In this document: one piece after another, positions 3,581 to 63,957 of the stretch
Position numbering within the stretch: the stretch's first letter is position 1
How the letters are laid out: every line of letters starts with the position of its first letter
Source: Apostichopus japonicus
Taxonomy: Eukaryota; Echinodermata; Holothuroidea; Aspidochirotida; Stichopodidae
Direction of reading: 5' to 3'
Length of the DNA stretch: 64,000 nucleotides
Assembly (NCBI RefSeq): GCF_037975245.1
Contig: NC_092572.1
Location: 3,259,501-3,323,500, forward strand
Notes under the pieces: generated by a model
The model's database searches: none
Told to the model about the DNA's origin: nothing
What the model saw: only the letters and a program-made list of their open reading frames with translations
Translations under genes and position numbers: made by a program

Positions 3581-3581
3581 A

Positions 3582-3628
3582 TGTGGTTGCGAAGTGGTTG
3601 CAAAGTGGTTGCAAAGTGGTTGCAAAAA
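3582..3628. repeat. Short tandem repeat, 11-12 bp unit
   Basis: Four consecutive copies of GTGGTTGC(A/G)AA occur in a row. Confidence 0.85.
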
Positions 3629-37779: not shown

Positions 37780-38010
37780 AATCTCCATCAATTTCACAAT
37801 CACCTACCTCAGCGATAGCTTTTAATGTAGGTAGGAAGGGCATCGTTCATAGCTATGGAGAACAGGTCTGTGAAGATGATGTGGATGGGAACCTCCCATT
37901 AGTCTGCTATCCACCGTCTGATATAATTGTAGACAGAAAATATGAGACTATTCAGTGTAATTGCACCGACTCAGATGGGCTTGTGGACAGCGTGACATTT
38001 TCTGTAACAA
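37780..38010 (+). CDS. Receptor exon 3: HYR-like Cys-rich repeat 1
   Basis: Acceptor TTGCTCTTTAG, donor GTTAGT, phase 1-1, 77 codons. Core residues are VCEDDVDGNLPLVCYPPSD, IIVDRKYETIQCNCTDSDG and DSVTFSVTS. The spacing D-x-x-P-x-x-C-x-P-P at the start and C-x-C-T-D-S-D-G ... F-x-V-T at the end resembles a shortened HYR (hyalin repeat) domain, an Ig-like fold abundant in echinoderm proteins. The middle strands are missing. There are four cysteines and an NCT glycosylation sequon. The HYR assignment is tentative. Confidence 0.7.
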
Positions 38011-38545: not shown

Positions 38546-38791
38546 AGAAAACGTCTTCTCCCCCATTATTTGAAACACCTCGCAGAGAGTCAGTAAGTTC
38601 CTATAATATGGGTAAGAAGGGTGTGCTACATTGCTACAATGCACCGGTCTGTGAAGATGATGTGGATGGGAACATCCCAGTAGATTGCTATCCACCATCT
38701 GGTGTAATTGTAGACAGAGAATATGAGACTATTCAGTGTAATTGTACTGACTCAGATGGGCTGATGAACAGTGTGACATTTCCTGTAACAA
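38546..38791 (+). CDS. Receptor exon 4: HYR-like Cys-rich repeat 2
   Basis: Acceptor GTTGCTTTAG, donor GTTAGT, phase 1-1, 82 codons. It opens with a Ser/Pro linker (KTSSPP) then KKGVLHCYNAPVCEDDVDG, CYPPSGVIVDREYETIQ and CNCTDSDGLMNSVTFPVTS. It carries one extra Cys (HCYN) relative to the other copies. It is very similar to exon 5, so the pair is a recent duplication. Confidence 0.75.
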
Positions 38792-40409: not shown

Positions 40410-40655
40410 GGCAAATGTCTTCTCCTCCATCAATTAAAACACATCACAGAGAGTCAGTAAATTCCTATAACATGGGTAAGAAGGGTGTGCTACATGGCTA
40501 CAATGCACCGGTCTGTGAAGATGATGTGGATGGGAAGCTCCCAGTAGTTTGCTATCCACCGTCTGGTATAATTGTAGACAGAGAATATGAGACTATTCAG
40601 TGTAATTGTACAGACTCCGATGAACTGATGGACAGCGTCACAATTCCTGTAACAA
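40410..40655 (+). CDS. Receptor exon 5: HYR-like Cys-rich repeat 3
   Basis: Acceptor GTTGCTTTAG, donor GTAAGT, phase 1-1, 82 codons. It opens RQMSSPPSIK and then repeats the exon 4 pattern (APVCEDDVDGKLPVVCYPPS, EYETIQCNCTDSDE, MDSVTIPVTS). Being symmetric, exons 3-5 could each be skipped or added without a frameshift, which would vary the stalk or binding region. Confidence 0.75.
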
Positions 40656-41267: not shown

Positions 41268-41408
41268 GCGTAACTGATTGGTTGCAACCTTGTTGGAGGA
41301 AGGCTGCCATTATTCTTTCGGTTATTTCACTACTAATAATTTTGGTATTAGTATTGATTTGCTGTTGCCTGTACAAGAATCACAAAAAGTTGAAAGCATA
41401 CCGTGCAG
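41268..41408 (+). CDS. Receptor exon 6: transmembrane segment
   Basis: Acceptor TATCCACAG, donor GTAAGT, phase 1-1, 47 codons. A juxtamembrane VTDWLQPCWRK is followed by a strong hydrophobic run (AAIILSVISLLIILVLVLIC) and then CCLYKNHKKLKAYR. The Cys pair and basic residues on the inner side give type I topology and possible palmitoylation (inference). Confidence 0.85.
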
Positions 41409-43182: not shown

Positions 43183-43688
43183 TAAATAACAGTAAAATAG
43201 AATTGACTGATAGAGCGGAAGAATTGATTCCTCTTACAGAACAACTGGAACAGAAGGAGAAACAGGTATGTATTAAAGCTTTAGGGTTGAGGGTGTTTCC
43301 GGATTTTCCTTCTTTTGGTACAAGAAAATTGTCGTAATGCTGTAAGATTAAAGTGGTTTCTAAAGTGCCCTACCATATCTGATTGCTTGTTGTTGTTTTT
43401 AGGAGGAGGCTGATCATTTAGAGAGCATCTTGCAAGATACAAAATAACAGTACAATGTGAGCTGTGTTGGGCTTCATCTCTACAGACACATTCTTGTGAT
43501 GTTTTTTATCAATTTATATGAAAAGTATTGTTTAACACAAACTTGAAGCAGTGTTAATGAACTGTGTTGTTAATTATAAATGTCATAAAACAATTGATGG
43601 CTTCAATGAATATTTTGTTTGATGATTCTTTTTCTTCACCCACAGGAGACAGAAATGAAGAATAAACTAGAAAAGCAAAATGAGAAAA
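43183..43688 (+). CDS. Tail module 0 (exons A0, B0, C0)
   Basis: A0 43183-43265 (83 nt, phase 1 to 0) follows the transmembrane exon in frame: NNSKIELTDRAEELIPL, then TEQLEQKEKQ. B0 43403-43447 reads EEADHLESILQDTK and a TAA, an alternative C terminus; a conserved donor-like GTGAGC at 43457 would make it a 54-nt stop-containing cassette instead. C0 43646-43688 (43 nt, phase 0 to 1) reads ETEMKNKLEKQNEK. A0+C0 is 126 nt, charged and Leu-spaced, predicted coiled coil. This copy is the most diverged from the later ones and is probably closest to the ancestral arrangement. Confidence 0.7.
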
Positions 43689-43694
43689 GTAAGA

Positions 43695-43890
43695 TTGTAT
43701 GCATAAATTAGGGCATATAACCCCATTGTTGTGCTAGTGTAATCAGCTATGTTACTTGCTATCTCATACATTGGTTATGTTATTATCAGACTAATATTAG
43801 CAATGTAGCATACCTTTGTACTACCATGAGTTGTTTATAGACTGTTTGTTCACATCACTGTTTGTTGAAAGTTCAGACTCATAGTCCGAA
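43695..43890 (+). repeat. Single-copy ancestor of the 88-bp intron repeat
   Basis: One unit (GGGCATATAACCCCATTGTT, then CTAGTGTAATCAGCTATGTT and TACTTGCTATCTCATACATT) is followed by TTATCAGACTAATATTAGCA and TTCACATCACTGTTTGTTGA. The same right flank appears after the last array, at about 62400-62500. Confidence 0.75.
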
Positions 43891-45425
43891 ACAACCACAA
43901 AACATGTCTGACAGCGTAAAACCCTTCTTAGGTGGTCCGACGGACGACAAGCTTATTTGCCGTAAGGGTTCAACACTTCCAACAAAGCTTGGAAAGTTTG
44001 GAAAGCGACCACTCTTGCTTTCTACCTCGCTATCTAGCTAGCTGGAGTACAACGTGTATACTGTGCATGTGGGCATCCTGCATTCTCGCTTATGTTGCTG
44101 CAATGTACGTGCTGTATACCCTGAGCTTACCCTCTGTCTCTTGGAAATTAGTGATCAGAAACGATTACGGAAATCGTTTTTCACTACCAGAGAATTTCCG
44201 CAACCCAACATGATTAATAATGAACAGTGTCATGCACCACATAAAATGTCTATAACTCTACACTACAGTTCTGTCCACGATTTTCGCAAAGTCAATCTCT
44301 GTAAGACCAGTCACTAAGAGAAAGACTTAACCCTCAGGCCGACATACTAGGCCTACGTAGCCTAATGTTACAGCTACAAGGCTTACTCGTTTTATAATAG
44401 TATTTCTTACGCACGGCTCTTGTGTAAGGCACGTCATTTTAAAAATCCAAGTGTTGGAAAATCGCAGGACGTATGTAACTAATATAATAATCCATTGGCA
44501 TATCTTAAGTAACGTTAGTGCACATGATGTGCAATGTACCAAAGTCAGACAACTCCAGTAGTATTTTTAAGTTGGTGCTTTCACAATCAAGAAATCCTTT
44601 GGACAACCAAATATGAAGGCAAGGTCCATAGTTACACGACATACTGTGCTAAGTCATAACACATGTGAACAATTCCATCAAGAAAGTTCTTAAACAAACA
44701 GTTGAATTTTCTAGTACAATGACTTTAACATTTGATCGGATGAAAATAGATGTGAACCAGGACATGAAATATTACTTTCTGAGAATGATGTTTACTGTTC
44801 CTTGAAAACTTGCATTGCTTAAATACAGTTTGCTGTTGCATTCCCCAAGCAGAAATGGCATGCCTAGGCTTGGCAGTGATATTATGTAAGTGTAACATAA
44901 AGTGGCATGGCATTGGCTAGTCAACAGACTTTCGTGTAAAAGTGTCGTCAGTTAGTTCAATTCCTTGGATCGGAGCTCTCTGGACATTTGAAAGTAGCCT
45001 CCTTTGTTTATTTGAACTTTCCAATAACTTCAGAAACTATAACTTATGTTAGTCCTATTTTCGTTTTAATGGCTGCATAATGCCATAATATTAATGACAT
45101 TAATGCCAACTTTGCTTAATGAGGTTATCGATGTTGCTCGCACGCTACTGGTAGTATATCTTAGCCTGAAAACCAGCTTTCTGGCAAATTATGGTCCTCA
45201 TTTGGTAAAGGCTTAAAGCTAGGGATAGTCATACTATATTTAATTTGATTGGTTCACAGAAGGTTCGTGATTTGGCTTTAATTAGCTTAGGCAGCTAGCC
45301 TGGTTTGGGTTTACGCTTGCCAAGATACTTCTTTTTTAACTAATCTCCCAATGAGTCTACCATGAATTATCCATAGGTTAGATGTTTAAAGCCAGTAGAA
45401 CATGAAAATAACACTGATTTGATGT
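43890..45425. other. Intron sequence, no exon recognised
   Basis: Slightly less AT-rich than its surroundings at 43.9-44.35 kb, with overlapping short frames on both strands that lack any domain. It may include an old insertion. Nothing else is recognised. Confidence 0.35.
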
Positions 45426-45429
45426 ACAT

Positions 45430-46040
45430 ATTTTTCTGAAGACCAGTTTTTTACATCAAATTCAGAATGCATTGTAACCATATATTCCTAAATAGGTCAA
45501 ATCATTAATAGCCTAGGTATCACCCTCCGTCACTTTGGAGATACAGTAAAAATATTGGTTTTTAATCTGTGTTTTTGCTAGAATTATTGTACAACCAAAC
45601 TTGCTGTTAGACAAAAGTGTAAGGCCTGGTTGACCGTTGACCGATGGACAACCAGAAAAAAAATCCTTAAAACTTTGACCTGCAGCTTATTGCTATTACC
45701 TATGAAATCCAGGTAAATATTATTTTATAAGCTATAGTTCAAACTACAATACCAATGAGTTGGTTATCCTCTCTGAAGTGCCCTGTACAAAGTCCGGTGC
45801 TTCAACAGTAGTAGTATTATAACAATACTGCAGTAGCGCATGAATTCAACTGATATCTTAGGTTATATTTAATTGGTCATAAACTTGATAAAAGGCCAAA
45901 TGCCTAATAGAATTGTTGGCTCAATTAGTTACCAGTAATGAAAGGAAGTCAGTATATATAGATGGTTTGTGCCTTTTTGTAGTTAAATCGGTTTTAACAG
46001 TTTAAGGAGAAGGTAACATAAACCTGGCACTTGTCACATG
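45430..46040 (+). repeat. Intron segment duplicated from 42065-42640
   Basis: The partner of the duplicated block described at 42065. It indicates that the small module after it (46.7-47.5 kb) arose in the same event or in a related one. Confidence 0.8.
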
Positions 46041-46684
46041 AACTACTTCAAAGCTATATTACAGAGAAGTCTGACCAGTGCTGAAAAATCTATCATTGGC
46101 TAACAGAAAGTGTGTTAAATTGTGTGTGGCTATATCGGGATGCATTAAGGGACCTAACTGAAGTTAAGCTACACTGTTAGCTTAATTTTCATGTGATTGT
46201 AAGTTTGGTTTGGTTCAGTTATCAATTGAGTAGAGTTTCAGTTCTAGCAATTCTATCAAACATAACTGCCGTGTCAGAAACAATTATTCACTTTAGGTAA
46301 AAACGTTCAACTACTTACCAACTTTAATTAGCTCAATAATCCAGTGACTTGGGTTTTTGAAGAGAAAAAATTACTACCCTCATTAGTTTCCAAGATTCTT
46401 GACCCAACCATGCACCTAATGTTGTTTCTGACATGCACATATCTGATTTGTGTCTGTGTCCTAATACTGTGGAGTAAACGTTCTTTGATCGAGCTACATA
46501 TACACACACATGCTAAACCTTACACCTAAGGATGCTCATTATTCTTATTTCATTAGATGAAAGCAATGTAATTATGCTTTAAACTTAATCGGCCACTTGA
46601 ATAAGTAGTAAGTAGGTTGGTGTAGCGTTATTTAATACCATTTGGAATTTGCCTTCGGTAATCATGTTTTCTTTAAACACACAG

Positions 46685-47479
46685 CTGCAAAACCGGAAGA
46701 AATGACATCCATTCAAAGTAGCACAAAAGACCAGCAGATTTCTGATTTGGTTAGTATTTAAGAAAAGCAGTGATCAGAGCTAGATACATGCTCTCACTTT
46801 CCTCACTGTGGAAAATAAATTACATTAAAAACAACATGTACCGCCTATTTTCCTTCCGACAACCAAGGGAGACTTCAGATAAACTTTTTGCAGTCTGTTC
46901 AATGGGCTTTGGTTCAAGGATAATGGTAACATTAGTGATTTGTTAATGTATGTGTCTCTCATGAAGGGAATCAGTATTTCCTTTGAGGTATGCAGAATAG
47001 TGCTCCATGTTAAGCACTAGAAGTACTTTGTTTGTGGACGTTGATGGGCATTGAAGTGAGTAAAGGATGTAAACAGACCTGCAAACACAGTATCTAAAGA
47101 AAGACAAGTTGTACAGGACTCAAAGTGGGTATGTGGATGCATCCCAGTGGAATTAATGTCATTGCTTGTGGATAAAGATCATTTTAGATCTAAAGTTTCA
47201 AACCTTGTTAACTGTTTTATCTACCATATTTTTCTACAATAGGTGGCATAAGTAGAACTACTCTCGTAGGGATACGGCACTTCATGCCACTGATTTGGTA
47301 ATTGCATAATTTATTCCGGGTGGTTTGTCATGCTATGTTTAACATAGCATAGAAATAGCTTCTTAACTAAAATGCTATTATAGTTATTTTGATTTTAAGC
47401 AATCTATGATTTTAATATTAAAATTCTCTTCTTTTCCTCCATGTTAAGGAGGATAAAATTGCAACACCGGATGCAACAT
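46685..47479 (+). CDS. Tail module variant (short exons A' and C')
   Basis: A' 46685-46749 (65 nt, acceptor AAACACACAG, donor GTTAGT, phase 1 to 0) reads AKPEEMTSIQSSTKDQQISD and Leu. C' 47449-47479 (31 nt, acceptor CCATGTTAAG, donor GTAAGT, phase 0 to 1) reads EDKIATPDAT. It has the same A/C phase pattern as the other modules but contributes 96 nt (32 residues) of polar, less coiled-coil-like sequence. No B exon is visible between the two. It keeps the frame into module 1. Confidence 0.6.
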
Positions 47480-48129
47480 GTAAGTCATTTGTTTATGAAT
47501 TTGAGATGACAGGGTAATTGACAAGTTCATCAATTTGGCCTGAACGAAACTGTAAAATGACTATCAAACATAACATGTCATTTTAACACCTGGATCACCA
47601 AAAACATTGAACTGCTATAGATGTGACTTACCTAATACTTGAGGCATTGCAGACTGTATCTAGTGTAAAGTAACAATTCTGCTAAAGTAGGCAGAAGAAA
47701 CAAGTACTACATATGGTTGAATAAACAAAAAAAAGTGAAAGTCCATAACTGGACTTTGAATTTCTGTTTATAACAAAGAAGATGCTAATAAATGGGGTAG
47801 TAGCATCCACAAATATAATCAAGGTGATTTTTTTCTTAAAAGTAAACAATATATCAAGTTTTCTGTTAAGAAAGAGCATCCTGTACAATGTGAATAATGA
47901 GATGGCTAGCTCAACACATGAATGTATTCTAAGCTGTTTGGTGATATTATTATTGATAAGTGTCTGCATTGTTTGGTTAAGTGATCATGGCTGAATTTAT
48001 TTTATTTTAAAGCAGTCACTAAGAATGTACTTTAAACTCCAGCAATTGGTAGATAATGCTTGCTATACATATTTAAGGTAAAGAAAAATATGTTACAGTT
48101 GGTTGTACATCTATATTTCTTTTCAACAG

Positions 48130-48730
48130 GTTCTAAAAGATCGACACAAAACGAGTCACAAGAATCGCTTCTGAAACCACTACAGGAGATGTTGGAGATG
48201 CAGGAGATGCTGGTAGGTATTAAAGCTTTAAAAATTAAATTCCAAAAACTTGAATTTGCCAGTGAATTGTGACCATGGGTTGGTGAAATTTTCGGTAGAA
48301 TTATTTTTTGAGGATTTTGCATTATTTCAGTACAAATAAAGTGTCCTAATAATGCAATATTATAGTGGTTTCCATCAATATTTAAAACATGAGTGCCCTA
48401 CCATATCTGCTTGCTTGCTGTTGTTTTAAGGAGGAGGCTTGAGGAGTATGATCATTTAGAGAGCATCTTGCAAGATACAAAATAACAGTACAATGTAAGC
48501 TATGTTGGGCTTCACCTCTACAAACGCAGCCTTGTGATGACCTTTTTTTTTAAATTATTATAAAAAGTATTGTTTAACATATACTAGAAGCAGTTTTAAT
48601 GAACTATGTTATTAATTATGAAAGTCACAATACAAATGCAGGCTTCAATTAATCTTTTGTTTGATGATTCTTTATCTTCACCCTTAGAAGAAAAAAATGA
48701 AGAATGAACTAGAAGAGCAACTCGAGAATT
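48130..48730 (+). CDS. Tail module 1 (exons A1, B1, C1)
   Basis: A1 48130-48212: SKRSTQNESQESLLKPL, then QEMLEMQEML, donor GTAGGT. B1 48431-48494: GAG GAG GCT TGA, so it stops after EEA; its donor GTAAGC at 48495 is intact. C1 48688-48730: KKKMKNELEEQLEN. A+C is 126 nt. The A1 frame stays open 19 codons into the intron (VGIKALKIKFQKLEFASEL, then stop), as in later copies. Confidence 0.65.
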
Positions 48731-48744
48731 GTAAGATTTTATGA

Positions 48745-49430
48745 GTATCTTAGAACACATAGACCCATTGTTGTACTAGTTTTAAAAGCTATGTTACTTG
48801 CTTTCTATATGGTAATCAGATTTTATGAGTAACTTGGAACATATAGACCCATTGTTGTTCTAGTGTAATCAGCTATGTTACTTGCTATCTCATACATGGT
48901 GATCAGATTTTATGAGTAACTTAAGACATATATACCCATTGTTCTACAAGTGTTATCAGCTATGTTACTTGCTATCTCATACATTGGTGATCAGATTTTA
49001 TGAGTTATTTAGGACATAAAGACCCATTGTTGTACTAGTGTAATCAGCAATGTTACTTGCTATATCATACAATGGTAAACATATTTTATAAGTCATTTAG
49101 GACATATAGACCATTGTTGTTCTAGTGTAGTCAGCTATGTTACTTGCTATCTCATACATTGGTGATCAGATTTTATGAGTAACTTAAGACATATATACCC
49201 ATTGTTCTACAAGTGTTATCAGCTATGTTACTTGCTATCTCATACATTGGTGATCAGATTTTATGAGTTATTTAGGACAAATAGACCCATTTTTGTACTA
49301 GTGTTATCAGCAATGTTACTTGCTATCTCATACAATGGTAAACATATTTTATAAGTCATTTAGGATACATAGACCATTGTTGTACTAGTGTAATCAGCTA
49401 TGTTACTTGCTATCTAATACATTGTATTGT
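48745..49430 (+). repeat. 88-bp intron minisatellite, block 1
   Basis: About seven to eight units of the form CAGATTTTATGAGTAACTTA, GACCCATTGTT, CTAGTGTAATCAGCTATGTT and ACTTGCTATCTCATACATTG. Confidence 0.9.
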
Positions 49431-49923
49431 AAAGTAACAAGACTTCTAAGGTAGGCAGAAGTAGAAAGTCCTACATATAGTTGAATAACCAATAAAATGT
49501 GAAAGTCTATTACTGGACTGTGAATTTCTGTTTATAACCAAGGAGATGCTAATAAATGGGGTAGTAGCATCCACAAATATAATCAAGGTGAACTGTTTCT
49601 TAAAAGTAAACAATTTATCAAGTTTTCTGTTAAGAAAGAGCATCATGTACAGTGTGAATAATGAGACGGCTAAGCTCAACACATGAATGTATTCTAAGCT
49701 GTTTGGTGATATTGTTATTGATAAGTGTCTGCATTGTTTGGATAAGTTATCATGGCTGAATTTATTTTCATCTAACTCACCATATACCGAGGAGGATACC
49801 TTAAAGCAGTCACTAAGAATGTACTTTAAACTCCAGCAGTTGGTAGATAATGCTTGCTATACATATTTAAGGTAATTAATAATATGCTACAGTTGGTTGT
49901 ACATCCATATTTCTTTTCAACAG

Positions 49924-50524
49924 TTTCTAAAACATCTACACAAAACGAGTCACCTGAATTACTTGTGAAACAACTACAAAAGATGTTGGAGATGCGGGAG
50001 ATGCTGGTAGGTATTAAAGCTTTAAAAATTAAATTCCAAAAACTTGAATTTGCCAGTGAATTGTGACCATGGGTTGGTAAAATTTTCGGTAGAATTATCT
50101 TTTGAGGATTTTGCCTTATTTCAGTACAAATAAAGTGTCCTAATGCTGTTTTATATTAAAGTGGGTTCCATCAATATTTAAAACATGAGTGCCCTACCAT
50201 ATCTGCTTGCTTGCTATTGTTTTTAGGAGGAGGCTTGAGAAGTATGATCATTTAGAGAGCATCTTGCAAGATACAAAATAACAGTACATTGTAAGCTATG
50301 TTGGGCTTCACCTCTACAAATGCAGCCTTGTGATGATTTTTTTTTAATTCTTATGAAAAGTATTGTTTTACATATATTAGAAGCAGTGTTAATAAACTGT
50401 GTTATTTATTATTAAAGTCACAATACAATTGTAGGCTTCAATTAATCTTTTGTTTTGATGATTCTTTATCTTCACCCTTAGGGGAAAAAAATGAAGAATG
50501 AACTAGAAGAGCAACACGAGAATT
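49924..50524 (+). CDS. Tail module 2 (exons A2, B2, C2)
   Basis: A2 49924-50006: SKTSTQNESPELLVKQL, then QKMLEMREML. B2 starts 50227 with GAG GAG GCT TGA. C2 50482-50524: GKKMKNELEEQHEN, donor GTGAGA. Junction codons with modules 1 and 3 are TTT (Phe). Near-identical sister copies are modules 4 and 6 (P-type: PELLVKQLQKM). Confidence 0.65.
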
Positions 50525-50529
50525 GTGAG

Positions 50530-51300
50530 ATTTTATGAGTATCTTAGGACACATAGACCCATTGTTGTACTAGTTTTAAAAGCTATGTTACTTGCTATCT
50601 ATATGGTAATCAGATTTTATGAGTAACTTGGAACATTTAGACCCATTGTTGTTCTAGTGTAATCTGCTATATTACTTGATATCTCATACATTGGTGATCA
50701 GATTTTATGAGTATTTTAGGTCATATAGACCCATTGTTCTACAAGTGTAATCAGCTATGTTACTTGATATCTCATACATTGCTGATACGATTTTATGAGT
50801 AATTTAGGACATATAGACCCATTGGTGTACTATATAATCAGCAATGTTACTTGCTATTTCAAACATTGGTGACCTGATTTCATAAGTAACTTAAGACATA
50901 TATACCTATTGTTCTACAAGTGTTATCACCTATGTTACTTGCTATCTCGTGCATTGGTGATCAGATTTTATGAGTTATTTAGGACAAATAGACCCATTGT
51001 TGTACTAGTGTTATCAGCAATGTTACTTGCTATCTCATACAATGGTAAACATATTTTATAAGTCATTTAGGACACATAGACCATTGTTGTTCTAGTGTAG
51101 TCAGCTATATTACTTGATATCTCATACATTGGTGATACGATTTTATGTGTAATTTAGGACATATAGACCCGGGGTGTACTATATAATCAACAATGTTACT
51201 TGCTATCTCATACATTGGTGATCTGATTTCATAAGTATCTTAGGACATAGAGACCCATTCTTGTACTAGTGTAATCAGCTATGTTACTTGCTATCTAATA
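50530..51300 (+). repeat. 88-bp intron minisatellite, block 2
   Basis: About nine units. Several variants (GTGTACTATATAATCAGCAA, CTGATTTCATAAGTA) recur in the same order in blocks 4 and 6. Confidence 0.9.
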
Positions 51301-51803
51301 CATTGTAGTGTAAAGTAACAAGCCTTCTAGGGTTGACAGAAGTAGAAAGTCCTACATATAGTTGAATAACCAATAAAATGTGAAAGTATATTACTGGACT
51401 GTGAATTTCTGTTTATAACCAAGAAGATGCTAATAAATGGGGTAGTAGCATCCACAAATATAATCAAGGTGAACTGTTTCTCAAAAGTAAACAATATATC
51501 AAGTTTTCCGTTAAGGAAGAGCATCCTGTACAGTGTGAATAATGAGACGGCTAAGCTCAAGACATGAATGTATTTATGCTGTTTGGTGATATTGTTATTG
51601 ATAAGTGTCTGCATTGTTTGGTAAAGTGATCATGGCTGAATTTATTTTCATCTAACTCACCATATACCGAGGAGGAAACCTTAAAGCAGTCACTAAGAAT
51701 GTACTATAAACTCCAGCAATTGGTAGATAATGCTTGCTATACATATTTAAGGTAAAGAATAATATGCTACAGTTGGTTGTACATCCATATTTCTTTTCAA
51801 CAG

Positions 51804-52383
51804 TTTCTAAAACATCTACACAAAACGAGTCACAAGAATCGCTTCTGAAACAACTACAGGAGTTGTTGGAGATGCAGGAGATGCTGGTAGGTATTAAAGC
51901 TTTAACAATTAAATTCCAAAAACTTGAATTTGCCAGTGAATTGTAACCATGGGTTGGTAAAATTTTCGGTAGAATTATCTTTTGAGGATTTTGCCTTATT
52001 TCAGTTCAGATAAAGCGTCCTAATTCTGTTAAATTAAAGTGGTTTCCATCAATATTTAATACATGAGTGCCCTACCATATCTGCTTGCTTGCTATTGTTT
52101 TTAGGAGGAGGCTTGAGTATGATCTTTAAGAGAGCATCTTACAAGATAACAGTACAATGTAAGCTATGTTGGGCTTTACCTCTACAAACGCAGACTTTTT
52201 TTTTAATTATTATGAAAAGTATTGTGTAACATATACTAGAAGCAGTGTTTATAGACCCTTGTTGTTAATTATAAATGTCACAATACAATTGCAGGCTTCA
52301 ATGAATCTTTTGTTTGATGATTCTTTATCTTCACCCTTAGAAGAAAAAAATGAAGAATGAACTAGAAGAGCAACACGAGAATT
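51804..52383 (+). CDS. Tail module 3 (exons A3, B3, C3)
   Basis: A3 51804-51886: SKTSTQNESQESLLKQL, then QELLEMQEML. B3 starts 52105 with GAG GAG GCT TGA. C3 52341-52383: KKKMKNELEEQHEN. This is the Q-type module (QESLLKQLQEL), whose sisters are modules 5 and 7. The readthrough frame after A3 has TIKFQKLEFASEL before a TAA. Confidence 0.65.
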
Positions 52384-52389
52384 GTAAGA

Positions 52390-53990
52390 TTTTATGAGTA
52401 ACTTAGGAGACAGACCCATTGTTGTACTAGTTTTATCAGCCATGTTACTTGCTATATATGTGGTAATCAGATTTTATGAGTAACTTGGAACATCTAGACC
52501 CATTGTTTTACTAGTGTAATCAGCTATGTAACTTGCTATCTCATACATTGGTGATCAGATTTTATGAGTAACTTAGGGCATATAGACCCATTGTTGTACT
52601 AGTGTAATCAGCCATGTTACTTGCTATATATGTGGTAATCAGATTTTATGAGTAACTTGGAACATCTAGACCCATTGTTGTACTAGTGTAATCAGCTATA
52701 TTACTTGCTGTCTCATACATTGGCGATCAGATTTTATGAGTAACTTAGGGCATATAGACCCATTGTTGTACTAGTGTAATCAGCTATGTTTCTTGCTATC
52801 TCATACATTGGTAATTATATTTTATGGGTAACTTAGGGCATATAGACCCATTGTTGTACTAGTGTAAACAGCTATGTTACTTGCTATCTCATACATTGGT
52901 GATCAGATTTTATGAGTAACTTAAGACATATAGACCCATTGTTGTTCTAGTGTAATCAGCTATGTTACTTGATATCTCATACATTGGTGATCAGATTTTA
53001 TGAGTAACTTAAGACATATGGACCCATTGTTGTACTAGTGTTATCAGCTATGTTACTTGCTATCTCATTGGTAATCATATTTCGTAATTTAGGACATGTA
53101 GACCCATTGTTCACTTAGTGTCATCAGCTATGTTACTGTTATCTCATACATTGGTAATCAGATTGTATAAGTAACTATCGCATACATTGGTGATCAGATT
53201 TAATGAGTATCTTAGGACATGTAGAATAATTCTTGTACTAGTGTAATCAGCTATGTTATTTGCTATATAATACATTGGTAATACGATGTTATGAGCAACT
53301 TAGCACATATAGCTCCATTATTGTACCAGTCTTATCAGCTATGTTACTTGCTATCTCATACATTGGTAATCAGATTTTATGAGTTATTTAAGACATATAG
53401 ATCAATAGTTTTACTAGTGTAATCAGCTATGTTACTTGCTATGCAAGACATTGGTAGATATATGTTATCAGTAACTTAGGACATAAAGACCCATTATTGT
53501 ACTAGTGTCATCAGCTATGTTACTTGCTATCTCATACAATGGTTATCAGATTTTATGAGTAACTTAGGACATATAGACCTATTGTTCTACAAGTGTTATC
53601 AGCTATGTTACTTGCTATCTCATACATTGGTGATCAGATTTTATGAGTAACTTAAGACATATATACCCATTGTTGTACTAGTGTTATCAGCAATGTTACT
53701 TGCTATCTCATACAATGGTAAACATATTTTATATGTCATTTAGGATACATAGACCATTGTTGTACTAGTGTAATCAGCAATGTTACTTGATATCTCATAC
53801 ATTGGTGATACGATTTTATGAGTAATTTAGGACATATATACCCATTGGTGTACTATATAATCAGCAATGTTACTTGCTATCACATACACTGGTGATCAGA
53901 TTTCATAAGTATCTTAGGACATAGAGACCCATTCTTGTACTAGTGTAATCAGCTATGTTACTTGCTATCTAATACATTGTATTGTAAAGT
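52390..53990 (+). repeat. 88-bp intron minisatellite, block 3 (long)
   Basis: About 18 units. The variant order, including a shortened TATCTCATTGGTAATCATAT unit and the GCACATATAGCTCCATTATT unit, matches the long block after module 7. Confidence 0.9.
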
Positions 53991-54478
53991 AACAAGACTT
54001 CTAAGGTAGGCAGAAGTAGAAAGTCCTACATATAGTTGAATAACCAATAAAATGTGAAAGTCTATTACTGGACTGTGAATTTCTGTTTATAACCAAGGAG
54101 ATGCTAATAAATGGGGTAGTAGCATCCACAAATATAATCAAGGTGAACTGTTTCTTAAAAGTAAACAATTTATCAAGTTTTCTGTTAAGAAAGAGCATCA
54201 TGTACAGTGTGAATAATGAGACGGCTAAGCTCAACACATGAATGTATTCTAAGCTGTTTGGTGATATTGTTATTGATAAGTGTCTGCATTGTTTGGATAA
54301 GTTATCATGGCTGAATTTATTTTCATCTAACTCACCATATACCGAGGAGGATACCTTAAAGCAGTCACTAAGAATGTACTTTAAACTCCAGCAGTTGGTA
54401 GATAATGCTTGCTATACATATTTAAGGTAAAGAATAATATGCTACAGTTGGTTGTACATCCATATTTCTTTTCAACAG

Positions 54479-55079
54479 GTTCTAAAACATCTACACAAAA
54501 CGAGTCACCTGAATTACTTGTGAAACAACTACAAAAGATGTTGGAGATGCGGGAGATGCTGGTAGGTATTAAAGCTTTAAAAATTAAATTCCAAAAACTT
54601 GAATTTGCCAGTGAATTGTGACCATGGGTTGGTAAAATTTTCGGTAGAATTATCTTTTGAGGATTTTGCCTTATTTCAGTACAAATAAAGTGTCCTAATG
54701 CTGTTTTATATTAAAGTGGGTTCCATCAATATTTAAAACATGAGTGCCCTACCATATCTGCTTGCTTGCTATTGTTTTTAGGAGGAGGCATGAGAAGTAT
54801 GATCATTTAGAGAGCATCTTGCAAGATACAAAATAACAGTACATTGTAAGCTATGTTGGGCTTCACCTCTACAAATGCAGCCTTGTGATGATTTTTTTTT
54901 AATTCTTATGAAAAGTATTGTTTTACATATATTAGAAGCAGTGTTAATAAACTGTGTTATTAATTATTAAAGTCACAATACAATTGTAGGCTTCAATTAA
55001 TCTTTTGTTTTGATGATTCTTTATCTTCACCCTTAGGAAAAAAAAATGAAGAATGAACTAGAAGAGCAACACGAGAATT
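54479..55079 (+). CDS. Tail module 4 (exons A4, B4, C4)
   Basis: A4 54479-54561 (P-type, same peptide as A2). B4 starts 54782: GAG GAG GCA TGA. C4 55037-55079: EKKMKNELEEQHEN. The junction codon from module 3 is TGT (Cys). Nearly identical to module 6, 3,612 bp downstream. Confidence 0.65.
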
Positions 55080-55084
55080 GTAAG

Positions 55085-55860
55085 ATTTTATGAGTATCTT
55101 AGGACACATAGACCCATTGTTGTACTAGCTCTAAAAGCTATGTTACTTGCTATCTATATGGTAATCAGATTTTATGAGTAACTTGGAACATTTAGACCCA
55201 TTGTTGTTCTAGTGTAATCTGCTATATTACTTGATATCTCATACATTGGTGATCAGATTTTATGAGTAATTTAGGTCATATAGACCCATTGTTCTACAAG
55301 TGTAATCAGCTATGTTACTTGATATCTCATACATTGCTGATACGATTTTATGAGTAATTTAGGACATATAGACCCATTGGTGTACTATATAATCAGCAAT
55401 GTTACTTGCTATTTCATACATTGGTGACCTGATTTCATAAGTAACTTAAGACATATATACCCATTGTTCTACAAGTGTTATCACCTATGTTACTTGCTAT
55501 CTCGTGCATTGGTGATCAGATTTTATGAGTTATTTAGGACAAATAGACCCATTGTTGTACTAGTGTTATCAGCAATGTTACTTGCTATCTCATACAATGG
55601 TAAACATATTTTATAAGTCATTTAGGACACATAGACCATTGTTGTTCTAGTGTAGTCAGCTATATTACTTGATATCTCATACATTGGTGATACGATTTTA
55701 TGTGTAATTTAGGACATATAGACCAGGGGTGTACTATATAATCAACAATGTTACTTGCTATCTCATACATTGGTGATCTGATTTCATAAGTATCTTAGGA
55801 CATAGAGACCCATTCTTGTACTAGTGTAATCAGCTATGTTACTTGCTATCTAATACATTG
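55085..55860 (+). repeat. 88-bp intron minisatellite, block 4
   Basis: About nine units, nearly identical to block 6 at 58.7-59.47 kb and close to block 2. Confidence 0.9.
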
Positions 55861-56359
55861 TAGTGTAAAGTAACAAGCCTTCTAGGGTTGACAGAAGTAG
55901 AAAGTCCTACATATAGTTGAATAACCAATAAAATGTGAAAGTATATTACTGGACTGTGAATTTCTGTTTATAACCAAGAAGATGCTAATAAATGGGGTAG
56001 TAGCATCCACAAATATAATCAAGGTGAACTGTTTCTCAAAAGTAAACAATATATCAAGTTTTCCGTTAAGGAAGAGCATCCTGTACAGTGTGAATAATGA
56101 GACGGCTAAGCTCAAGACATGAATGTATTCTAAGCTGTTTGGTGATATTGTTATTGATAAGTGTCTGCATTGTTTGGTAAAGTGATCATGGCTGAATTTA
56201 TTTTCATCTAACTCACCATATACCGAGGAAGAAACCTTAAAGCAGTCACTAAGAATGTACTATAAACTCCAGCAATTGGTAGATAATGCTTGCTATACAT
56301 ATTTAAGGTAAAGAATAATATGCTACAGTTGGTTGTACATCCATATTTCTTTTCAACAG

Positions 56360-56938
56360 TTTCTAAAACATCTACACAAAACGAGTCACAAGAATCGCTT
56401 CTGAAACAACTACAGGAGTTGTTGGAGATGCGGGAGATGCTGGTAGGTATTAAAGCTTTAAAAATTAAATTCCAAAAATTTGAATTTGCCAGTGAATTGT
56501 AACCATGGGTTGGTAAAATTTTCGGTAGAATTATCTTTTGAGGATTTTGCCTTATTTCAGTTCAGATAAAGCGTCCTAATTCTGTTAAATTAAAGTGGTT
56601 TCCATCAATATTTAATACATGAGTGCCCTACCATATCTGCTTGCTTGCTATTGTTTTTAGGAGGAGGCTTGAGTATGATCTTTAAGAGAGCATCTTACAA
56701 AATAACAGTACAATGTAAGCTATGTTGGGCTTTACCTCTACAAACGCAGACTTTTTTTTTAATTATTATGAAAAGTATTGTGTAACATATACTAGAAGCA
56801 GTGTTTATAGACTTTGTTGTTAATTATAAATGTCACAATACAATTGCAGGCTTCAATGAATCTTTTGTTTGATGATTCTTTATCTTCACCCTTAGAAGAA
56901 AAAAATGAAGAATGAACTAGAAGAGCAACACGAGAATT
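56360..56938 (+). CDS. Tail module 5 (exons A5, B5, C5)
   Basis: A5 56360-56442: SKTSTQNESQESLLKQL, then QELLEMREML (Q-type). B5 starts 56661: GAG GAG GCT TGA. C5 56896-56938: KKKMKNELEEQHEN. Nearly identical to module 7 at +3,612 bp. Confidence 0.65.
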
Positions 56939-56944
56939 GTAAGA

Positions 56945-57600
56945 TTTTATGAGTAACTTAGGAGACAGACCCATTGTTGTACTAGTTTTATCAGCCATTT
57001 TACTTGCTATATATGTGGTAATCAGATTTTATGAGTAACTTGGAACATCTAGACCCATTGTTTTACTAGTGTAATCAGCTATGTAACTTAGGACATATAG
57101 ACCTATTGTTCTACAAGTGTTATCAGCTATGTTACTTGCTATCTCATACATTGGTGATCAGATTTTATGAGTAACTTAAGACATATATACCCATTGTTCT
57201 ACAAGTGTTATCAGCTATGTTACTTGCTATCTCATACATTGGTGATCAGATTTTATGAGTTATTTAGGACAAATAGACCCATTTTTGTACTAGTGTTATC
57301 AGCAATGTTACTTGCTATCTCATACAATGGTAAACATATTTTATATGTCATTTAGGATACATAGACCATTGTTGTACTAGTGTAATCAGCAATGTTACTT
57401 GATATCTCATACATTGGTGATACGATTTTATGAGTAATTTAGGACATATATACCCATTGGTGTACTATATAATCAGCAATGTTACTTGCTATCACATACA
57501 CTGGTGATCAGATTTCATAAGTATCTTAGGACATAGAGACCCATTCTTGTACTAGTGTAATCAGCTATGTTACTTGCTATCTAATACATTGTATTGTAAA
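56945..57600 (+). repeat. 88-bp intron minisatellite, block 5 (short)
   Basis: About seven units. At about 57085 the sequence jumps from the module 3/7-type start of a block into the end of the long-block order seen at 53.57-53.99 kb, which looks like an internal deletion or unequal-crossover joint. Confidence 0.9.
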
Positions 57601-58090
57601 GTAACAAGACTTCTAAGGTAGGCAGAAGTAGAAAGTCCTACATATAGTTGAATAACCAATAAAATGTGAAAGTCTATTACTGGACTGTGAATTTCTGTTT
57701 ATAACCAAGGAGATGCTAATAAATGGGGTAGTAGCATCCACAAATATAATCAAGGTGAACTGTTTCTTAAAAGTAAACAATTTATCAAGTTTTCTGTTAA
57801 GAAAGAGCATCATGTACAGTGTGAATAATGAGACGGCTAAGCTCAACACATGAATGTATTCTAAGCTGTTTGGTGATATTGTTATTGATAAGTGTCTGCA
57901 TTGTTTGGATAAGTTATCATGGCTGAATTTATTTTCATCTAACTCACCATATACCGAGGAGGATACCTTAAAGCAGTCACTAAGAATGTACTTTAAACTC
58001 CAGCAGTTGGTAGATAATGCTTGCTATACATATTTAAGGTAAAGAATAATATGCTACAGTTGGTTGTACATCCATATTTCTTTTCAACAG

Positions 58091-58691
58091 GTTCTAAAAC
58101 ATCTACACAAAACGAGTCACCTGAATTACTTGTGAAACAACTACAAAAGATGTTGGAGATGCGGGAGATGCTGGTAGGTATTAAAGCTTTAAAAATTAAA
58201 TTCCAAAAACTTGAATTTGCCAGTGAATTGTGACCATGGGTTGGTAAAATTTTCGGTAGAATTATCTTTTGAGGATTTTGCCTTATTTCAGTACAAATAA
58301 AGTGTCCTAATGCTGTTTTATATTAAAGTGGGTTCCATCAATATTTAAAACATGAGTGCCCTACCATATCTGCTTGCTTGCTATTGTTTTTAGGAGGAGG
58401 CATGAGAAGTATGATCATTTAGAGAGCATCTTGCAAGATACAAAATAACAGTACATTGTAAGCTATGTTGGGCTTCACCTCTACAAATGCAGCCTTGTGA
58501 TGATTTTTTTTTAATTCTTATGAAAAGTATTGTTTTACATATATTAGAAGCAGTGTTAATAAACTGTGTTATTAATTATTAAAGTCACAATACAATTGTA
58601 GGCTTCAATTAATCTTTTGTTTTGATGATTCTTTATCTTCACCCTTAGGAAAAAAAAATGAAGAATGAACTAGAAGAGCAACACGAGAATT
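58091..58691 (+). CDS. Tail module 6 (exons A6, B6, C6)
   Basis: A6 58091-58173 (P-type). B6 starts 58394: GAG GAG GCA TGA. C6 58649-58691: EKKMKNELEEQHEN. The junction codon from module 5 is TGT (Cys). I saw no coding difference from module 4. Confidence 0.65.
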
Positions 58692-58696
58692 GTAAG

Positions 58697-59470
58697 ATTT
58701 TATGAGTATCTTAGGACACATAGACCCATTGTTGTACTAGCTCTAAAAGCTATGTTACTTGCTATCTATATGGTAATCAGATTTTATGAGTAACTTGGAA
58801 CATTTAGACCCATTGTTGTTCTAGTGTAATCTGCTATATTACTTGATATCTCATACATTGGTGATCAGATTTTATGAGTAATTTAGGTCATATAGACCCA
58901 TTGTTCTACAAGTGTAATCAGCTATGTTACTTGATATCTCATACATTGCTGATACGATTTTATGAGTAATTTAGGACATATAGACCCATTGGTGTACTAT
59001 ATAATCAGCAATGTTACTTGCTATTTCATACATTGGTGACCTGATTTCATAAGTAACTTAAGACATATATACCCATTGTTCTACAAGTGTTATCACCTAT
59101 GTTACTTGCTATCTCGTGCATTGGTGATCAGATTTTATGAGTTATTTAGGACAAATAGACCCATTGTTGTACTAGTGTTATCAGCAATGTTACTTGCTAT
59201 CTCATACAATGGTAAACATATTTTATAAGTCATTTAGGACACATAGACCATTGTTGTTCTAGTGTAGTCAGCTATATTACTTGATATCTCATACATTGGT
59301 GATACGATTTTATGTGTAATTTAGGACATATAGACCAGGGGTGTACTATATAATCAACAATGTTACTTGCTATCTCATACATTGGTGATCTGATTTCATA
59401 AGTATCTTAGGACATAGAGACCCATTCTTGTACTAGTGTAATCAGCTATGTTACTTGCTATCTAATACAT
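58697..59470 (+). repeat. 88-bp intron minisatellite, block 6
   Basis: Same variant order as block 4, offset by 3,612 bp. Confidence 0.9.
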
Positions 59471-59971
59471 TGTAGTGTAAAGTAACAAGCCTTCTAGGGT
59501 TGACAGAAGTAGAAAGTCCTACATATAGTTGAATAACCAATAAAATGTGAAAGTATATTACTGGACTGTGAATTTCTGTTTATAACCAAGAAGATGCTAA
59601 TAAATGGGGTAGTAGCATCCACAAATATAATCAAGGTGAACTGTTTCTCAAAAGTAAACAATATATCAAGTTTTCCGTTAAGGAAGAGCATCCTGTACAG
59701 TGTGAATAATGAGACGGCTAAGCTCAAGACATGAATGTATTCTAAGCTGTTTGGTGATATTGTTATTGATAAGTGTCTGCATTGTTTGGTAAAGTGATCA
59801 TGGCTGAATTTATTTTCATCTAACTCACCATATACCGAGGAAGAAACCTTAAAGCAGTCACTAAGAATGTACTATAAACTCCAGCAATTGGTAGATAATG
59901 CTTGCTATACATATTTAAGGTAAAGAATAATATGCTACAGTTGGTTGTACATCCATATTTCTTTTCAACAG

Positions 59972-60550
59972 TTTCTAAAACATCTACACAAAACGAGTCA
60001 CAAGAATCGCTTCTGAAACAACTACAGGAGTTGTTGGAGATGCGGGAGATGCTGGTAGGTATTAAAGCTTTAAAAATTAAATTCCAAAAATTTGAATTTG
60101 CCAGTGAATTGTAACCATGGGTTGGTAAAATTTTCGGTAGAATTATCTTTTGAGGATTTTGCCTTATTTCAGTTCAGATAAAGCGTCCTAATTCTGTTAA
60201 ATTAAAGTGGTTTCCATCAATATTTAATACATGAGTGCCCTACCATATCTGCTTGCTTGCTATTGTTTTTAGGAGGAGGCTTGAGTATGATCTTTAAGAG
60301 AGCATCTTACAAAATAACAGTACAATGTAAGCTATGTTGGGCTTTACCTCTACAAACGCAGACTTTTTTTTTAATTATTATGAAAAGTATTGTGTAACAT
60401 ATACTAGAAGCAGTGTTTATAGACTTTGTTGTTAATTATAAATGTCACAATACAATTGCAGGCTTCAATGAATCTTTTGTTTGATGATTCTTTATCTTCA
60501 CCCTTAGAAGAAAAAAATGAAGAATGAACTAGAAGAGCAACACGAGAATT
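59972..60550 (+). CDS. Tail module 7 (exons A7, B7, C7)
   Basis: A7 59972-60054 (Q-type, same peptide as A5). B7 starts 60273: GAG GAG GCT TGA. C7 60508-60550: KKKMKNELEEQHEN. Confidence 0.65.
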
Positions 60551-60555
60551 GTAAG

Positions 60556-62400
60556 ATTTTATGAGTAACTTAGGAGACAGACCCATTGTTGTACTAGTTT
60601 TATCAGCCATTTTACTTGCTATATATGTGGTAATCAGATTTTATGAGTAACTTGGAACATCTAGACCCATTGTTTTACTAGTGTAATCAGCTATGTAACT
60701 TGCTATCTCATACATTGGTGATCAGATTTTATGAGTAACTTAGGGCATATAGACCCATTGTTGTACTAGTGTAATCAGCCATGTTACTTGCTATATATGT
60801 GGTAATCAGATTTTATGAGTAACTTGGAACATCTAGACCCATTGTTGTACTAGTGTAATCAGCTATATTACTTGCTGTCTCATACATTGGCGATCAGATT
60901 TTATGAGTAACTTAGGGCATATAGACCCATTGTTGTACTAGTGTAATCAGCTATGTTTCTTGCTATCTCATACATTGGTAATTATATTTTATGGGTAACT
61001 TAGGGCATATAGACCCATTGTTGTACTAGTGTAAACAGCTATGTTACTTGCTATCTCATACATTGGTGATCAGATTTTATGAGTAACTTAAGACATATAG
61101 ACCCATTGTTGTTCTAGTGTAATCAGCTATGTTACTTGCTATCTCATACATTGGTGATCAGATTTTATGAGTAACTTAAGACATATGGACCCATTGTTGT
61201 ACTAGTGTTATCAGCTATGTTACTTGCTATCTCATTGGTAATCATATTTCGTAATTTAGGACATGTAGACCCATTGTTCACTTAGTGTCATCAGCTTTGT
61301 TACTGTTATCTCATACATTGGTAATCAGATTGTATAAGTAACTATCGCATACATTGGTGATCAGATTTAATGAGTATCTTAGGACATGTAGAATAATTCT
61401 TGTACTAGTGTAATCAGCTATGTTATTTGCTATATAATACATTGGTAATACGATGTTATGAGCAACTTAGCACATATAGCTCCATTATTGTACCAGTCTT
61501 ATCAGCTATGTTACTTGCTATCTCATACATTGGTAATCAGATTTTATGAGTTATTTAAGACATATAGATCAATAGTTTTACTAGTGTAATCAGCTATGTT
61601 ACTTTCTATGCAAGACATTGGTAGATATATGTTATCAGTAACTTAGGACATAAAGACCCATTATTGTACTAGTGTCATCAGCTATGTTACTTGCTATCTC
61701 ATACAATGGTTATCAGATTTTATGAGTAACTTAGGACATATATACCTATTGTTCTACAAGTGTTATCAGCTATGTTACTTGCTATCTCATATATTGGTTA
61801 TCAGATTTTATGAGTAATTTTGAACATATAGACCCATTGTTGTACTAGTATAATCAGCTATGTTACTGCTATCTCATACATCGGTAATCATATTTATGAG
61901 TAACTTAAGACATATAGACCCGTTGTTGTACTAGTGTAATCAGCTATATTACTTGCTATATCATTGGTAATCTTATTTCGTGAGTTATTTAGGACATATA
62001 GACCCATTGTTCTCTTAGTGTCATCTGCTATTTTACTGCTATCTCATTCATTGGTAATCATATTTATGCGTAACTTAGGACATATGATCCATTGTTGTAC
62101 TAGTGTAATCAGCTATGTTACTTGCTATCTCATTGGTAATCATATTTCGTGAGTAACTTAGGACATATAGACCCATTGTTCGCTTAGTGTCATCAGCTGT
62201 GTTACTTGCTATCTCATACATTGGTAAACATATTTTATAAGTAATTTAGGACATATAGACCATTGTTGTACTAGTATAATCATCTATGTAATTTGCTATC
62301 TCATACATAGGTAATCGGTCCATGAGTAACTTAGGAAATATATACCGATTTTTGTACTGGTGTAATCAGCTATGTTACTTGCTTTCTCATACATTGGTAA
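60556..62400 (+). repeat. 88-bp intron minisatellite, block 7 (longest)
   Basis: About 20 units (for example starts at 61068 and 61156, exactly 88 bp apart). The first about 1.2 kb matches block 3; the rest is more diverged. It ends in the same right flank as the single unit after module 0. Confidence 0.9.
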
Positions 62401-62778
62401 TCTTTATTATCAGGCTATTATAAGCAATTAAGAATAGCTATTGTACTATCGTGAGTTGTTATAATGTGTGTTCACATCACTGCTTGTTGAAAGTTCAATC
62501 TAATACTTCCAAGTTAACATTACTGGTATGTCAATGTTTTCAGTGTTTCAAACCTACCAATTTTACTAAAACTTCAATCTGGGTAATCTAGGGGTGGTCT
62601 TCTCCATAAGCATTCTCTATCATACCTATGTCCGTTAAAGTCTTTCAGAATTTCTTACTATTACTGGGATGTCATAGAATCCAACTCCAGCAATTTGTAG
62701 ATATTTCTAGCTGCTCATTTAAGATGAAAAAGCAATATGTTATAGTTGGCTGTACATCAATTTTTTTTCTTTCAACAG

Positions 62779-63957
62779 TGTCTAAAATATCGGAACAAAG
62801 CGAGATACACGTAACGCTTCTGAACCAACTACATGAGATGATGGAGACGCGGGAGATGCTGGTAAGTATTAAAGTTTCAACAAATAAATTTCACAAACTT
62901 GAAGTTGCCAGAGAAATGTGAACATGGGTTGGTGACATTTTGGGTATCATTATCTTTCAGGATTTTGCCGTCTTTCAGTACAAATAAATTGTCCTAATGC
63001 TGTAATATTAAATGGTTTCCATCAATATTTAGAACATGAGCGCCCTACCATATCTGCTTGCTTGTTTTTTTGTTTTTTTTAAGAGGTGGCTTGAGGAGTA
63101 TGAGCATTAAGAGAGCATCTTGCAAAATTCAAATTAAAGGATTGGTTTAGGTGTCTGACATGTCGATCTTGTATGAAAGAGATTAAAAAGACAAACAGAA
63201 CAGTAAAGAAACTACCACGATAGCATGCTCTGTTAAGGAGATATCACACTTTGGAGATTTCAAAATTTCTTTGCAAATGACTGGTGTAGAAAAAGTAACT
63301 GTGAGGGTGTGATGTCACATTCTCACTTCCTTAACATGTGTCAACATATTTCATTAAACAATAATTGCATTTTTTTTGTCAAAAATCTAAAACAAATATA
63401 ACCAAGCATTCTTCAGATGTTAAATCTCTAATACATCCCTTGACACATATGAGATCTCCTTACGTATCTTTTGGTTGTAAGTCATAAAATCTTCCAACGT
63501 ATTTTAATAAAATAACAAAGACTTTTAAGTAATGTGAGAATATGACGTCACAGCTAGTCTGATTTCAGCATTTTATACACAATCAGATAGAACTTAAAAC
63601 TTGAATATCTCCTGAACGGAAAAAATATTTGAATAATTTCTTCACTATTGGTTTTTTTTTTTTAATTGTCTTCTTTCATATAAGATAAACATTTGTGACA
63701 CCTGAACTAGTCCTTTAATAGTACAATGTGAGCTGTGTTGGGCTTCACCTCTACAGACACAGCCTTGTGATGACTTTTTTAAAGTTGATATGAAAAGTAT
63801 TGATTAACACACACTAGAAGCAGTGTTAATGAATTGTGTTGTTAATTATAAATGTCACAATATAATTGATAGCTTCAATGAATCTTTTGTTTGATGATTC
63901 TTTATCTTCACCATTAGAAGACAAAACAGAAGAAGCTAGAAGAGAACCTCGAGAAAA
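62779..63957 (+). CDS. Tail module 8 (exons A8, degenerate B8, C8)
   Basis: A8 62779-62861: SKISEQSEIHVTLLNQL, then HEMMETREML, donor GTAAGT. The B8 position (about 63084) has a weakened acceptor (TTTTAAGAG) and is split by a 577-bp transposon insertion. C8 63918-63957 (40 nt, one codon shorter): KTKQKKLEENLEK, donor GTAAGA. A+C is 123 nt (41 residues), still in frame. More diverged than modules 1-7, like module 0. The phase-1 donor shows that the gene continues past the window. Confidence 0.65.
63138..63714. mobile_element. Non-autonomous DNA transposon (MITE) with TTAA target duplication
   Basis: Flanked by TTAA at 63134-63137 and 63715-63718. Termini are inverted: left AGGATTGGTTTAGGTGTC, right complement AGGACTAGTTCAGGTGTC. 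The 577-bp interior has no coding capacity. Removing it restores the B-exon sequence seen in other modules (CAAATTAA joined to TAGTACAATGTGAGC). The TTAA duplication with AGG-type ends suggests a Kolobok-like family; piggyBac-type is the alternative. Confidence 0.85.

Follow-up and report, generated by a model that had tools for sequence, protein, structure and literature searches.

Does a long run of short, paired exons in the genome of the echinoderm Apostichopus japonicus encode protein and, if it does, what kind of protein would it lengthen? The run lies in a 64,000-nucleotide stretch of DNA (C12:3259501-3323500, hereafter the window), which we analysed with searches covering the 671-Mb genome in its 35 contigs. 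Its mitochondrial contig uses the echinoderm code: set against part of bovine COX1, AAA falls on Asn at 7/7 positions, TGA on Trp at 9/9 and AGA on Ser at 3/4, and the ORFs agree with the echinoderm gene order COX1-ND4L-COX2-ATP8-ATP6-COX3-ND3-ND4-ND5-(ND6)-CYTB..ND1-ND2. The array is likely to be a genuine coding one, and to form the cytoplasmic part of a germline V-set receptor gene. The predicted gene comprises one V-set immunoglobulin (Ig) exon, three copies of a domain here called D, a membrane exon and the array, with phase-1 joints throughout (frames checked), and it continues beyond the window end. With its exons joined, the tail is an open frame of 523 residues between the membrane exon and E1, the exon that follows the last pair.

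Exon anatomy and reading frame of the tail array

Within the window the array holds nine A/C exon pairs and one short pair, with a tenth A/C pair just past the window end. Eight of the nine pairs are exactly 83+43 nt, or 42 codons (coordinates and phases were scripted), with A exons starting at 43183, 48130, 49924, 51804, 54479, 56360, 58091 and 59972. The A exon runs from phase 1 to 0 and the C exon from phase 0 to 1. A sequence-only reading of the window had described modules 0-7 in just these terms, and its lengths and phases were confirmed by script; its arithmetic, by which 126 nt make 42 residues or six heptads, is correct, and its placement of the array in an Ig-type receptor agrees with the V-set exon being joined in phase to the transmembrane (TM) exon and the array. 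The features of the gene, all on the + strand, are as follows.

34794..35126, +, V-set Ig domain exon with Pfam and PDB matches; end set by eye at a G/GTTTGT donor
37780..38010, +, domain D copy 1, a cysteine-containing extracellular module; phase 1-1 exon, AG/GT
38546..38791, +, domain D copy 2; phase-checked exon
40410..40655, +, domain D copy 3; phase-checked exon
41268..41408, +, membrane exon and start of the cytoplasmic tail; hydrophobic stretch then KNHKKLK, read by eye
43183..43265, +, module 0, A exon (T0 type); 83 nt, phase 1-0
43403..43456, +, module 0, B cassette with in-frame stop after EEADHLESILQDTK; AG acceptor, GTGAGC donor, 54 nt
43646..43688, +, module 0, C exon; 43 nt, phase 0-1
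46685..46749, +, short variant pair, first exon S; 65 nt
47449..47479, +, short variant pair, second exon s; 31 nt, likewise 31 nt in sister genes gA, gB and gC
48130..48730, +, module 1 (T3 type); A 48130-48212, B (stop cassette) from 48431, C 48688-48730; 83+43 nt
49924..50524, +, module 2; A 49924-50006, C 50482-50524; 83+43 nt
51804..52383, +, module 3; A 51804-51886, C 52341-52383; 83+43 nt
54479..55079, +, module 4; A 54479-54561, C 55037-55079; 83+43 nt
56360..56938, +, module 5; A 56360-56442, C 56896-56938; 83+43 nt
58091..58691, +, module 6; A 58091-58173, C 58649-58691; 83+43 nt
59972..60550, +, module 7; A 59972-60054, C 60508-60550; 83+43 nt
62779..63957, +, module 8; A 62779-62861, C 63918-63957; 83+40 nt, C one codon shorter

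Past the window end the tenth pair measures 83+38 nt and is followed by E1 of 82 nt, reaching 66020 in window numbering; the changes of -5 in the tenth C and -1 in E1 sum to -6, so that the frame is restored. A candidate last exon, E2, lies near 66669, and its gB, gD and window versions stop at different points (alignment by eye).

Sister genes gA to gE share both the chromosome and the exon plan of the window gene. They carry one A/C pair (gA, gD, gE), two (gC) or five (gB), compared with ten in the window gene:

gA, 2.64 Mb, one A/C pair and a final unpaired A
gB, 2.74 Mb, five A/C pairs and E1
gC, 2.82 Mb, two A/C pairs and a final unpaired A
gD, 3.24 Mb, one A/C pair and E1
gE, 3.13 Mb, one pair; A 74 nt, C 43 nt
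gF, 3.20 Mb, D and membrane exons present

In gF no tail exon was matched within the 10 kb read. The S exon measures 56 (gA), 59 (gB), 50 (gC) and 65 nt (gE), with the phase kept in all. Two other accounts of the array were discarded: the 83/43 pattern as a chance reading is ruled out by same-phase 83+43 pairs in gA, gB and gC and in-frame variants in gD and gE, and the array as part of another gene by the open phase-1 joints from the TM exon through module 0 to E1.

The tail exons that deviate in length (A-type 82 nt in E1, 74, 65 and 62; C 40 and 38; S 59, 56 and 50) do so by a multiple of three in seven of nine cases, the other two cancelling each other, compared with 5 of 27 intron gaps. 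Those 27 distinct gaps were found over 846 intron columns in nine aligned modules as against none over 126 exon columns (Poisson P = 0.018; with 11 modules, 35 gaps and P = 0.0067), and in a neutral simulation on the intron tree a mean of 3.1 of nine modules acquired a stop, with zero stops in 5.6% of 2000 runs. Gap test and stop simulation are each modest and they agree with one another; together they support a frame lock of the array, as judged on sequence. AG..GT borders are present at all 51 located exons in five genes, a count which, as the search pattern demanded such borders, shows only that none of the 51 homologous positions has lost them.

Near-neutral divergence together with frame breaks had been named beforehand as evidence against such an expandable tail. 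We found the first of these in the A exons, where the pooled ratio of nonsynonymous to synonymous divergence (dN/dS) within module type is 1.1-1.3 (0.35-0.66 for C; pairs are not independent, and only 83-nt A exons and 43-nt C exons were counted), yet no uncompensated frame break in the located tail exons. The T0-versus-T3 ratios, 0.58 for A with dS saturated and 2.57 for C, are not used as evidence. An alternative is that only the first modules are used and the remainder is a passively amplified tandem repeat under relaxed constraint, a reading that draws on the A dN/dS of 1.11 in the window array, on the loss of both B splice sites in module 8, on the odd lengths of the 3' C and E1 and on the satellite-like 88-bp repeats in the introns between modules. 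It has to contend with ten consecutive pairs that are open and in frame, odd 3' lengths that cancel, gaps confined to introns with zero in exons and splice borders kept at every located exon, and we regard it as unlikely.

For an array that is coding throughout, the phase-1 bounds of the A+C pair mean that unequal crossing-over would add or remove 42 residues at a time and leave the frame unharmed. The claim that any number of modules can be included without altering the frame, whether by splicing or by genomic copy change, accordingly stands in its genomic half, given the one to ten pairs per gene, these phase-1 bounds and a 2,611-bp repeat: the block 54479-57089, which starts at module 4, recurs from 58091 at 100% identity along its whole length, and the 1,881-bp units of modules 4 and 6 match exactly. 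The block at 49924 is 99.2% identical to the one at 54479. The 2,611-bp identity reflects either a very recent copy change or an assembly duplication. An 88-bp satellite-like tandem repeat fills the introns between modules and recurs from module to module (48734-49424, 50528-51305, 52387-53979, 55083-55860, 57083-57591, 58695-59472 and 60554-62402), and it may promote unequal crossing-over. At the 5' end, 41819-42583 and 45436-45988 both match overlapping parts of gA 3059-3837, which suggests that module 0 was inserted, together with a duplicated intron piece, ahead of the short pair. The intron after module 0 contains a dispersed repeat (43881-44500), to which other contigs gave 31 longer matches of 73-82% identity.

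Heptad register and the B stop cassette

A preserved coiled-coil register had also been claimed, and counts of hydrophobic residues at heptad positions a and d suggest that this lock is clear only in the sister genes gA, gB and gC and weak in the window gene. In gB, 38/39 hydrophobics of the T0 repeats and 48/52 of the whole tail fall in a single a/d register (shuffles 19.0 ± 1.7 for the whole tail); the corresponding counts are 18/18 in the gA tail and 23/25 in that of gC. The joined gB tail matched 13 assorted Pfam families, two of them above curated cut-offs (PF16515 HIP1 clathrin-binding, 39.5 bits vs 28.8; PF04201 TPD52, 27.3 bits vs 25), matches that we read as a likeness of coiled-coil composition, not as homology, and a Pfam search with a 158-residue piece of the window tail found no family.

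Several points weigh against a coding, coiled tail in the window gene. In window modules 1-9 only 46/104 hydrophobics lie at a/d (shuffles 35.2 ± 2.2). A COILS-type score is also high for shuffled tails and is hence weak evidence, so that the coil argument rests on the register counts. With the dN/dS of A near 1, residue-level constraint on this exon is not shown. Because of the -5/-1 changes at the 3' end, E1 of the window gene can be joined in frame from the last C alone; the 2,611-bp identical block could be an assembly duplication; candidates for a signal-peptide exon exist and none is firm; and the exon set itself is a prediction from sequence alone.

The hydrophobics of window modules 1-9 prefer positions a and g, then d, and T3 modules 1-7 each open with a polar stretch of some 12 residues (SKTSTQNES or SKRSTQNES, followed by PE or QE), with a proline within this polar start in three of the seven. 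One continuous coil from the window modules is therefore doubtful; going by the register counts, a continuous six-heptad rod would be the sister form, and the expanded form of the window would consist of helices with linkers. We infer that the array is expressed. In gA, gB and gC the 42-residue unit comprises six true heptads, and a single long coiled coil probably makes up the tail; it would link receptor chains and serve as a rod or scaffold whose length is specific to each gene. The A exon amplified in the window gene is a different one (T3), and the tail of this gene is more likely to form short Leu/Met-rich helices separated by polar linkers.

Between A and C lies the cassette B. In all but one of the 19 modules, reading on from A into this cassette leads to a stop 3-14 codons on (ending EEA in 14 modules, EEADHLESILQDTK in two, EVA in one and GEA in one). 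An AG acceptor is present in 16/19 modules, and a GTGAGC, GTAAGC or GTGAGT donor in 18/19. These features fit a terminating or poison exon, by means of which splicing could cut the tail short behind a given module. If B were a regulated stop exon, one gene would yield several tail lengths. Besides the stops and splice sites, this proposal is favoured by the first half of B, which is 97% identical when T0 modules are compared across genes and 94% when T0 is set against T3, with introns at 82-93%, and by the two genes gA and gC, in which the 20 and 30 kb covered gave no match to C downstream of the last A and the B acceptor position reads into the short similar ends EEANQMHCALPC and DEANQTHCALLC, each closed by a stop (by eye). 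The second half of B, at 95% among T0 modules, is 85% identical between T0 and T3 and so no better than introns, and the reading frame of B itself shifts between modules. One acceptor is mutated, another B is partly deleted and that of module 8 is without acceptor and donor, and exons downstream would expose B-containing transcripts to decay. On balance we consider a splice-set tail length possible but rather unlikely. At window 48213 and equivalent positions after T3 A exons the frame stays open for 19 codons beyond the donor in several modules (ending VGIKALKIKFQKLEFASEL before the stop), and retention of this intron would thus add a short end.

Divergence of the extracellular and cytoplasmic exons

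The V-set exon matched Pfam V-set with an E-value of 7.3e-5 and 23.4 bits, slightly below the curated cut-off of 26, and its sequence is of V-set type in spite of that score. Against PDB it matched 95 sequences to E 0.01 (best E 1.2e-6), of which the best 60 are antibody and T-cell receptor V domains. Domain D matched no family in a Pfam search at E 0.1; its predicted structure (three sequences) has five strands, with a mean predicted local distance difference test (pLDDT) of 64.8 and a predicted template modelling score (pTM) of 0.46. The membrane exon is in phase-1 frame with D3 and the tail, and provides a single TM segment (hydrophobicity by eye). A genome search with the V-set exon gave 15 matches, all on C12: nine at 79-100% identity between 2.63 and 3.30 Mb, five at 39-46% between 2.39 and 2.62 Mb, and one fragment. 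The D search gave at least 79. At C12:3012456-3019684 nine D exons stand in a run at 0.8-0.95 kb spacing, seven with equal score, which indicates that the extracellular D exon has itself been amplified in another receptor gene of the cluster. An open reading frame (ORF) at window 1815-2123 (+) looks Ig-like by eye (..GRYICLL..), is without a Pfam match and is perhaps an exon of a neighbouring receptor.

Divergence follows an inside-out pattern: V-set and most D exons are conserved, and the membrane and A exons have changed more than the introns around them. DNA identity is 0.90-0.97 for V-set exons versus 0.81-0.91 for their flanks, and 0.76-0.83 for membrane exons, at or below the 0.76-0.93 of theirs. 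Between the window gene and those sisters that align (three of four for V-set and S), with gapped columns and stop codons skipped, dN/dS is 0.60 for V-set, 0.33-0.48 for D, 2.70 for TM, 1.21 for A of module 0, 0.43 for its C and 0.59 for S; relative to intron divergence K, dN/K is 0.45, 0.40-1.08, 2.29, 2.30, 1.32 and 1.23, respectively. The D1 comparisons with gC and gD probably pair different D copies.

Between the T0 and T3 module types, identity profiles, drawn from nine T0 modules and from modules 1 and 2 out of the nine of T3 type, show flanking introns that are 82-85% identical and A exons at 41% (ungapped). Identity in 12-nt windows falls from 0.96 immediately ahead of A to 0.26-0.48 across the greater part of the exon and is back at 0.68 in the final exon window and at 0.86 beyond it; intron windows elsewhere range from 0.52 to 0.92. 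Among T0 modules across genes, A is 82.5% identical and introns 88-93%. The score of a gapped T0-T3 alignment of A was reached by 1, 5, 7 and 9 of 300 shuffles in four pairs, and this likeness makes a common origin with rapid change possible.

The pattern is not uniform, and two observations count against it. In ten membrane-exon pairs (five of the seven genes; gA and gF left out) the dN/dS values span 0.55-3.30 and five of them lie under 1, although every pair has a dN/K above 1 (1.3-5.0); for the window gene and gC alone dN/dS is 0.79 or 1.52 depending on the alignment. Synonymous divergence also exceeds that of introns (dS/K 1.90 for A, 3.04 for C). Part of the divergence may thus be due to gene conversion of introns, and the fast change of A and TM exons would be only apparent if introns were homogenised while older exon differences were kept by selection. 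The synonymous excess and the mixed membrane-exon ratios both speak for this quite plausible account, if not one that we would favour outright; the membrane exon of the window gene, with dS/K of 0.85 but dN/K of 2.29, speaks against it, and selection would still be required to hold the exons apart. Building on the inside-out pattern, one could envisage a self-sorting length code, in which near-constant ectodomains are combined with private membrane helices and coil units such that each receptor pairs only with itself, and B splicing sets the number of 42-residue quanta per chain; this is a speculative and improbable scheme.

Elsewhere in the window we noted a reverse transcriptase ORF at 14271-15599 (-) (Pfam RVT_1, E 1.2e-24), a transposon-like DDE superfamily endonuclease ORF at 19425-19955 (+) (Pfam PF13359, E 7.7e-12) and a GGAGA-type tandem repeat of ~790 bp at 6513-7298 that is open in several frames.

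Chicken BG genes and other known systems

The arrangement had been taken as one not known from described receptors, which is wrong, the chicken BG genes, butyrophilin-related genes of the MHC-B with 21-nt exons, being a direct precedent. BG proteins combine a V domain and a membrane helix with a tail encoded by 13-37 mostly 21-nt heptad exons whose first codon is split 1+2 and whose number varies between genes and alleles; unequal crossing-over has been suggested, and intron read-through stops truncate the tail (PMC5938342, PMC4046983, PMC5043582). Selection is reported in the tail and not the V domain of T-cell BG genes (PMC5938342), and none was found in the V, membrane or tail regions of BG1 (PMC5043582). 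Shared with the present family are the V-like Ig domain, the single membrane helix, the phase-1 joints and a long cytoplasmic heptad coil of variable exon number, the last indicated here by the gA, gB and gC registers and the range of pair numbers and less clearly by the window gene. The unit is different, mostly a single 21-nt exon of seven residues in BG and an 83+43-nt pair of 42 residues enclosing a stop cassette here, as are the ectodomain (one V domain without D domains in BG, three D domains here) and the host, bird versus echinoderm. Further marks of a BG protein are a V domain of the B7/butyrophilin type and a disulfide-linked dimer through a CDR1 cysteine. Because the working principle is shared but the unit differs, we describe the array as working like BG and do not call it a BG gene. 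New in relation to BG are the 42-residue two-exon unit, the stop cassette in 18/19 modules and the inside-out divergence.

Mammalian butyrophilins likewise combine an Ig ectodomain and a membrane helix with some cytoplasmic heptads, but these are few (PMC4046983) and are followed by a B30.2 domain in place of a long array. In snake venom genes the process termed accelerated segment switch in exons (ASSET) radically switches short exon segments to unrelated sequence (PMC2711939), which resembles the strong change of A between module types; those proteins are secreted, whereas the exon here is cytoplasmic and sits among introns at 82-85% identity. Titles and abstract openings on echinoderm and tandem-exon cases yielded none describing the present receptor family, which is no proof of absence.

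If transcripts confirm the predicted gene, an echinoderm would possess a BG-like design, an Ig-V receptor in which the inner coil, lengthened by exon copying, is the more variable end. Were it unrelated by descent to BG, this would be convergence, and convergence would suggest that tail length or pairing, and not ligand choice, is the selected variable in such receptors, an open question for BG. The sister genes, with 1 to 10 units, offer a ready length series.

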